From Bdellovibrionales bacterium RIFCSPHIGHO2_01_FULL_40_29 (GTDB taxonomy: Bacteria > Bdellovibrionota > Bdellovibrionia > Bdellovibrionales > Bdellovibrionaceae), in NCBI GenBank assembly GCA_001771815.1, contig MEPU01000007.1, positions 124,001-188,000 of the forward strand: a stretch of 64,000 bases of DNA, given 5' to 3'. The position numbers were made by a program, and so were the translations under genes. Positions 45,974-46,608 of the stretch are shown here, piece by piece; position 1 is the first letter of the stretch; the number at the start of each line of letters is the position of its first letter. Under the pieces are notes generated by a model. The model had not been told where the DNA came from, made no database searches, and was given only the letters and a program-made list of their open reading frames with translations.

Positions 45974-46021
45974 AATTATACCCGGGTAATATTGACAATC
46001 GAATATTACCCGGGTATAATT
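45974..46021. promoter_or_regulatory. Perfect 20-8-20 inverted repeat, likely double operator of the DUF2239 gene
   Basis: Two 20-base arms (45974-45993 and 46002-46021) are exact reverse complements around an 8-base centre. Each arm contains the palindrome TACCCGGGTA, so the site reads as two operator copies on opposite strands. It ends 17 bases before the ATG of the DUF2239 gene, with AGGAG between. Either a tightly repressed promoter with a cooperative dimer pair, or an mRNA hairpin. No similar site is seen elsewhere in the window. Confidence 0.8.
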
Positions 46022-46038
46022 GAACTCAGGAGTTAAAA

Positions 46039-46608
46039 ATGAATACCTATACAGCCTTCGAGAGTTCTCAAAAATTAATCAGCTCTGATCTTGAAAAAGT
46101 TCTTTTAACCGTTAAGAAAAGACTCAAGTCAAATCGTGACGCCAGTATACTGATATTTAGTGATTCCACGGGGAAGCAGATGGATTTTGATCTGAGTGGA
46201 ACAGACGCGGACGTTATTGAACGACATAAAATCTATACCGCTCAAATGGCTTCGCCTCAATCTGGTGTTGGTCGTCCAAGGCTAGGTGTCGTTCCCCGGG
46301 AAATATCATTGCTGCCAAGTCATTGGGAGTGGCTGAACAATCAAACGGGCGGTTCTTCAGCGACAATAAGGTTATTGATTGATGAAAAAATGAAGTTGGG
46401 TGTATCGGATAAACAAAAGGTAAAAAAATCTCAAGAGGTGGTGTATAAGTTTTTAACCGTTATGGCCGGTGATTTGCCAAACTTTGAGGAAGCCATTCGA
46501 TATTTGTACCGATCTGATCGAAAGAAGTTTATTGAACTTATTTCTGATTGGCCGAAAGACATTGGGAAGCATGCTTTAATGTTGGCCGCAGATGTTTTTG
46601 AAAAATAA
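46039..46608 (+). CDS. DUF2239 family protein
   Basis: 189 residues. The family pattern is clear: TYTAFESSQKLISSDLEKVLLTVKKRL, ILIFSDSTGKQMDFDLSGTDADVIER, GRPRLGVVPREISLLPSHWEWLNNQTGGSSATIRLLIDE and a C-terminal helical half (FLTVMAGDLPNFEEAIRYLYRSDRKKF). The PRLGVVPREISLLPxHWEWL segment resembles a ribbon-helix-helix-like or small DNA-binding element, but function is unknown. It is controlled by the large inverted repeat immediately upstream. A decayed partial copy lies at 47957-48006. AGGAG precedes the ATG. Confidence 0.85.
   Translation: MNTYTAFESSQKLISSDLEKVLLTVKKRLKSNRDASILIFSDSTGKQMDFDLSGTDADVIERHKIYTAQMASPQSGVGRPRLGVVPREISLLPSHWEWLNNQTGGSSATIRLLIDEKMKLGVSDKQKVKKSQEVVYKFLTVMAGDLPNFEEAIRYLYRSDRKKFIELISDWPKDIGKHALMLAADVFEK

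Follow-up and report, generated by a model that had tools for sequence, protein, structure and literature searches.

A Conserved Double Operator with an Embedded Promoter Suggests That DUF2239 Proteins Are Autorepressors

RESULTS

A putative double operator is fused to the DUF2239 promoter. In the 64,000-nucleotide stretch of Bdellovibrionales DNA analyzed here (the window), a perfect inverted repeat just ahead of a DUF2239 gene consists of two palindromes that flank and overlap a promoter, and this architecture is found at DUF2239 genes or at the leaders of their operons, and almost nowhere else. Our reading of the repeat is that of a double operator fused to the DUF2239 promoter, with the DUF2239 protein as its binder and autorepressor, to which we assign a probability of about 0.8. 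The architecture is observed directly; the identity of the regulator as the DUF2239 product, its fold, and the repression that it would exert are inferred.

The arms of the repeat (45974-45993 and 46002-46021) pair at all 20 positions (100% complementarity) and enclose an 8-nt loop. Each arm has the 10-base palindrome TACCCGGGTA as its core (45979-45988 and 46007-46016), and 17 nt separate the end of the repeat from the ATG of DUF2239 at 46039. The first-pass annotation had described all three features in these terms; its observation of the repeat is correct and weightier than was first claimed. The repeat amounts to two 20-bp palindromes, AATWTTAYCCGGRTAWWATT, in which AT-rich arms surround a CCGG core and whose centers lie 28 bp apart; we designate them the putative operator sites O1 (AATTATACCCGGGTAATATT, 45974-45993) and O2 (AATATTACCCGGGTATAATT, 46002-46021), both without strand. 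It is the longest perfect inverted repeat of the window, the runner-up having arms of 13 nt (loops of 3 to 20 nt), and the longest perfect arms in 10 shuffled windows were 9 to 12 nt. Across the 2.93-Mb genome, TACCCGGGTA occurs exactly twice, both times in the repeat, and no further site with three or fewer mismatches to the 20-mer was found.

The repeat encloses a sigma-70 promoter that matches the consensus at 12 of 12 positions. Its −35 element TTGACA (45992-45997, + strand) begins within the right arm of O1, and its −10 element TATAAT (46015-46020, +) lies within the right arm of O2 after a 17-nt spacer; elsewhere in the window, no other sigma-70 promoter with a 17-nt spacer and at most one mismatch was found. 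This embedded promoter had been overlooked in the first reading of the sequence. Judging from the promoter geometry, transcription is predicted to start at 46026-46028 (approximately 46027, +), about 7 nt past the −10 element, which is 3′ of the repeat and right at the sequence-predicted ribosome-binding site AGGAG (46028-46032, +). Since the predicted start is downstream of the repeat, the repeat would act as DNA unless an upstream transcript is used. The conservation of the left arm of O1, which lies outside both promoter elements, is a sign of a bound protein.

Instead of repressing this promoter, binding might activate it or set up a bistable positive loop, given that the geometry leaves some room for a dual role and O1 lies where activators sometimes bind. 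However, a promoter with a 12/12 consensus match and an ideal 17-bp spacer has no need of an activator, and O2 extends over the spacer and the −10 element. We regard activation as quite improbable and repression as the better reading.

The operator pair is conserved in at least 13 phyla. DUF2239 is present in 39 of 148 related genomes, and most loci where it is the first gene have both sites, with TTGAC, ahead of it. At least 13 phyla have DUF2239 genes preceded by the same pair with TTGAC between the sites, namely, Bdellovibrionota, Pseudomonadota, Fibrobacterota, Myxococcota, Hydrogenedentota, Acidobacteriota, Bacillota, Planctomycetota, Armatimonadota, Melainabacteria, Chloroflexota, Marinimicrobia, and Deinococcota, the labels being those of the record titles, several of which belong to metagenome bins, so that individual assignments may be wrong. 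It was also found at most of 80 genome loci spanning many phyla and at plasmid DUF2239 genes of Deinococcus, Phyllobacterium, Cupriavidus, Paenibacillus, Eleftheria, Rhizobium, and Comamonas. The absence of the repeat upstream of orthologs had been named at the outset as an argument against its significance; its presence upstream across phyla instead favors the feature.

We scored both sites together, with the threshold set at the 99.9% quantile of 2,780 dinucleotide shuffles, and found the pair directly upstream, within 130 to 150 nt of the start, in 94 of 139 DUF2239 loci. The spacing was 27 to 29 bp in 84 of these (mode, 28), and TTGA lay between the sites in 84 as well. At 21 more loci, the pair preceded the first gene of the operon or was found after correction of the start, which brings the count to approximately 115 of 139; about 17% of the loci, including most copies on viral contigs, had no recognizable pair. 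The score had been shaped on the 139 loci and was then frozen for a held-out set of 24 loci, of which 23 came from Alphaproteobacteria drawn separately. The upstream region exceeded the shuffle maximum in 18 of the 24, one of which has a doubtful second site (hence approximately 17), compared with 0 of the 24 downstream regions.

Some loci depart from the simple arrangement. Where DUF2239 is second behind an MFS transporter, as in the Bdellovibrio-like loci examined, the pair lies ahead of the transporter, approximately 1.2 to 1.4 kb upstream. In three Bradyrhizobium loci (L065, L073, and L074), the pair is approximately 0.9 to 1.2 kb upstream of DUF2239, which suggests that the operon there is led by another gene. 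At three plasmid loci (L040, L043, and L046), the open frame extends upstream through the operator, which a longest-frame gene call hides; the pair on the Phyllobacterium plasmid sits inside such an over-extended frame. Two record labels also drew attention. In L051 (CAKLQH020000010.1), labeled Acinetobacter phage MD-2021a, DUF2239 lies beside cysN/cysD in the same gene order as in Acinetobacter baumannii L047, so the record looks like a bacterial chromosome rather than a phage. In L126 (JAUEPE010000028.1), labeled Frankia sp. RB7, the DUF2239-MATE locus is Bradyrhizobium-like, so the label or the assembly may be wrong.

Conservation resides in each site and not in the pairing of the arms. At 77 non-redundant loci, each of the two sites forms the palindrome AATWTTAYCCGGRTAWWATT by itself, with its AT-rich arms kept, and perfect pairing of the 20-nt arms is found at 1 of the 77, namely, the window. 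What is selected is each site's own dyad, and the earlier proposal that exact conservation of the arms reflects selection does not hold. When sites were matched within loci and after permutation (of 26), the inverted sense gave 16.35 versus 15.52 and the direct sense 16.42 versus 15.94; a slight within-locus excess in both senses is as expected from shared ancestry and composition.

These observations weigh against the very stable mRNA hairpin that the first-pass annotation had also proposed; such a structure in the leader would block translation or terminate transcription. The strand does fold at −46.7 kcal/mol (z, −7.1), and inverted matching within loci slightly exceeds the permuted value, but direct matching does likewise. 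The only strong promoter sits within the repeat, so that the transcript would begin past it, at approximately 46027, and the features that were kept are each site's palindrome and the DNA spacing. A terminator was ruled out by the lack of a T-run, and a known RNA family was set aside since Rfam gave only microRNA-like matches, far short of the gathering scores and typical of any hairpin. Taken with the single case of perfect pairing, this makes the hairpin highly improbable. Of the two interpretations offered originally, that of a protein-bound operator stands: two regulator dimers on one promoter are well supported by the two kept palindromes that flank and overlap a consensus promoter across phyla.

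The pair is tied to DUF2239. A reverse scan for two TAYCCGGRTA sites, in which a promoter was not required, covered 291 genomes of the phylum and 50 DUF2239-bearing genomes. In these 341 genomes, it returned 27 pairs (13 + 14), 26 of which were at DUF2239 or its operon, and the reversed control pattern returned 1 match. All pair-bearing genomes in the scans carry DUF2239. The sole exception in position is a pair in genome G055 ahead of a gene with a SnoaL-like domain (PF07366, E 4.7e-27). This locus (L155; G055:C1:3780963-3781000) has a perfect operator pair 84 kb from DUF2239, ahead of a SnoaL-like polyketide cyclase gene. In Novosphingobium (L120), a SnoaL-like gene lies directly behind DUF2239, so the SnoaL-like gene of G055 looks like a true second target of the regulator.

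The neighboring genes vary widely, leaving DUF2239 as the only constant partner of the pair. Among 58 downstream genes scanned, MATE efflux genes were the most frequent (18, mostly in Bradyrhizobium), followed by those for alpha/beta hydrolases (6), RPE65-type oxygenases (4), DsbA-like proteins (3), and leucine carboxyl methyltransferase-like proteins (2), with single cases of P450, SnoaL, and others. The plasmid neighbors include MATE, a transporter annotated for arabinose, and DUF1330. This neighborhood suggests that DUF2239 senses small, perhaps hydrophobic or foreign, compounds, and it would repress the linked efflux or detoxification genes as well as its own promoter.

Conserved operators do not by themselves identify their binder, and another, separately encoded protein could bind the palindromes, DUF2239 being merely a target; the pair at the SnoaL-like gene of G055, so far from DUF2239, would fit such a regulator. 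Against it, the co-occurrence of pair and DUF2239 and the 26 of 27 pairs at DUF2239 or its operon extend over unrelated phyla, and no other gene nearby is constant. A non-local regulator would also be expected to have more sites, whereas the genome of the window has only this pair. We consider a separate binder unlikely and favor the DUF2239 protein itself. The statement in the first-pass annotation that no regulator is adjacent is thus probably wrong, the DUF2239 gene being the one that most likely encodes it.

The DUF2239 protein has a candidate DNA-binding segment. The gene (46039-46608, +) encodes a protein of 189 amino acids, the proposed regulator of its own promoter, which is matched over its whole length by the Pfam DUF2239 model (PF09998; residues 3 to 183 on model positions 1 to 182, E 2.9e-61). 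The best-conserved stretch of the family reads GRPKLGVxxREVTLLPRHWxWLxxQxGGASxxLRxLV. Its first half looks like an AT-hook core and is GRPRLG in the window (codons 78 to 83; 46270-46287, +). In an alignment of 61 sequences, G78, R79, P80, L82, and G83 are invariant, residue 81 is K or R in 60, and R occurs at position 77 in just 27; the GRP core is flanked by basic residues, as in AT-hooks.

The second half (codons 87 to 119; 46297-46395, +) resembles a strand-helix-turn-helix with the G-x-S turn of ribbon-helix-helix (RHH) proteins. Its predicted layout is a strand near 87 to 92, a helix at 93 to 100, the GxS turn at 105 to 107, and a helix at 105 to 119, and G105-x-S107 is invariant throughout the alignment. 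With hhalign, the DUF2239 core matched members of RHH_4 gathered within this analysis with a moderate probability of 72 and a score of 25.6, compared with at most 21.0 for 200 column shuffles and 11.7 for the reversed control. The N- and C-terminal parts gave no match to the RHH_4 members, the profile comparison with RHH_1 (PF01402) gave none to DUF2239, and hmmscan against Pfam returned neither an RHH nor an AT_hook hit.

An AlphaFold2 model built from the 61-sequence alignment (pLDDT 84) has the helices at 93 to 100 and 105 to 119, with residues 71 to 92 loose and the strand segment mostly below a pLDDT of 50, in keeping with a strand that forms only upon dimerization; a model built without an alignment was poor (pLDDT 56). 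No RHH chain was among the Foldseek or VIA-align matches, which scarcely cover the RHH-like segment, its strand being disordered in the monomer model. As for fold relatives, the C-terminal helices match unrelated helical proteins with a middling best Z of 7.1, none of them meaningful, and no solved structure with a sequence match to DUF2239 was found.

In Acinetobacter (L047:3986-4534 and L051:814-1362), the operator is divergent (TACCCTGATAA / TACCCCGATAA) with a closer spacing, and otherwise invariant residues of the DUF2239 protein are altered (LLP to LQK and GGAS to ASAS). Operator and segment residues have changed together here, a possible switch of specificity seen in one clade only. Covariation of Gly86 with altered operator cores, initially seen in 3 of 3 cases, was contradicted by L232, which combines Gly86 with a canonical operator.

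DISCUSSION

A mechanism that would account for these features can be proposed. The central segment of DUF2239 may dimerize as a ribbon-helix-helix and recognize the CCCGGG core through the major groove, with the AT-hook-like GRPKLG ahead of it placed in the minor groove at the AT-rich arms; the two hooks of a dimer would then match the two AT arms of a palindrome. With a dimer on each site, the −35 element, the spacer, and the −10 element would be covered and RNA polymerase shut out, resulting in tight autorepression of a promoter that, once free, would be very strong. Release would come from a signal, perhaps a hydrophobic or xenobiotic small compound detected by the N- or C-terminal domain, and would co-induce operon partners such as MATE or MFS efflux, alpha/beta hydrolase, RPE65-type oxygenase, SnoaL-like cyclase, or P450.

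On balance, we lean toward DUF2239 being a previously unrecognized, bacteria-wide family of transcription factors that combines AT-hook-like and ribbon-helix-helix elements with new flanking sensor domains and uses a nearly unchanged double operator with an embedded promoter, in at least 13 phyla, to govern efflux and detoxification genes that differ among genomes. This would give a concrete, testable function to the widespread family PF09998. The linked MATE, MFS, hydrolase, and oxygenase genes hint at the kind of signal sensed, and a reporter from one species should serve most, given the constancy of the operator. For a local regulator, a cognate site kept across Bacillota, Deinococcota, and Bdellovibrionota is out of the ordinary and should make the protein-DNA code of the family readable. 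In the literature searched, which did not cover subscription journals, we found no relevant paper on DUF2239, PF09998, COG3644, or the operator sequence, none on RHH combined with an AT-hook, and no operator matching the CCCGGG core with its 28-bp pair spacing.

The closest parallels are DNA-binding proteins of three kinds. AT-hook proteins (HMGA and the bacterial CarD; Pfam AT_hook) have an (R)GRP core beside basic residues and bind AT-rich DNA. DUF2239 likewise has a GRP core by basic residues, and AT-rich arms flank its operator core; unlike those proteins, it has a single hook and no Pfam AT_hook hit. RHH autorepressors (MetJ, Arc, CopG, NikR, ParD-type antitoxins, and MazE6; Pfam RHH_4, PF13467) use paired palindromic operators over the promoter to control their own gene. 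The DUF2239 protein would resemble them in its predicted short strand-helix-helix segment with a G-x-S turn and in the proposed control of its own gene through paired palindromes, which overlap the promoter as in autorepressed operons. Autoregulation through an 18-bp operator is one example among RHH proteins (PMC9477884). However, DUF2239 has a Pfam family of its own and carries large additional domains at both termini as well as an AT-hook-like sequence ahead of the RHH-like segment, and its sequence similarity to RHH proteins is detectable by profile comparison alone. Finally, as an apparently self-repressed regulator beside efflux and detoxification genes, DUF2239 recalls the local drug-sensing repressors of the TetR/MarR type, such as TtgR and AcrR, although it has no TetR or MarR domain and, in many genomes, has no linked partner and, judging from the sites, controls itself alone.
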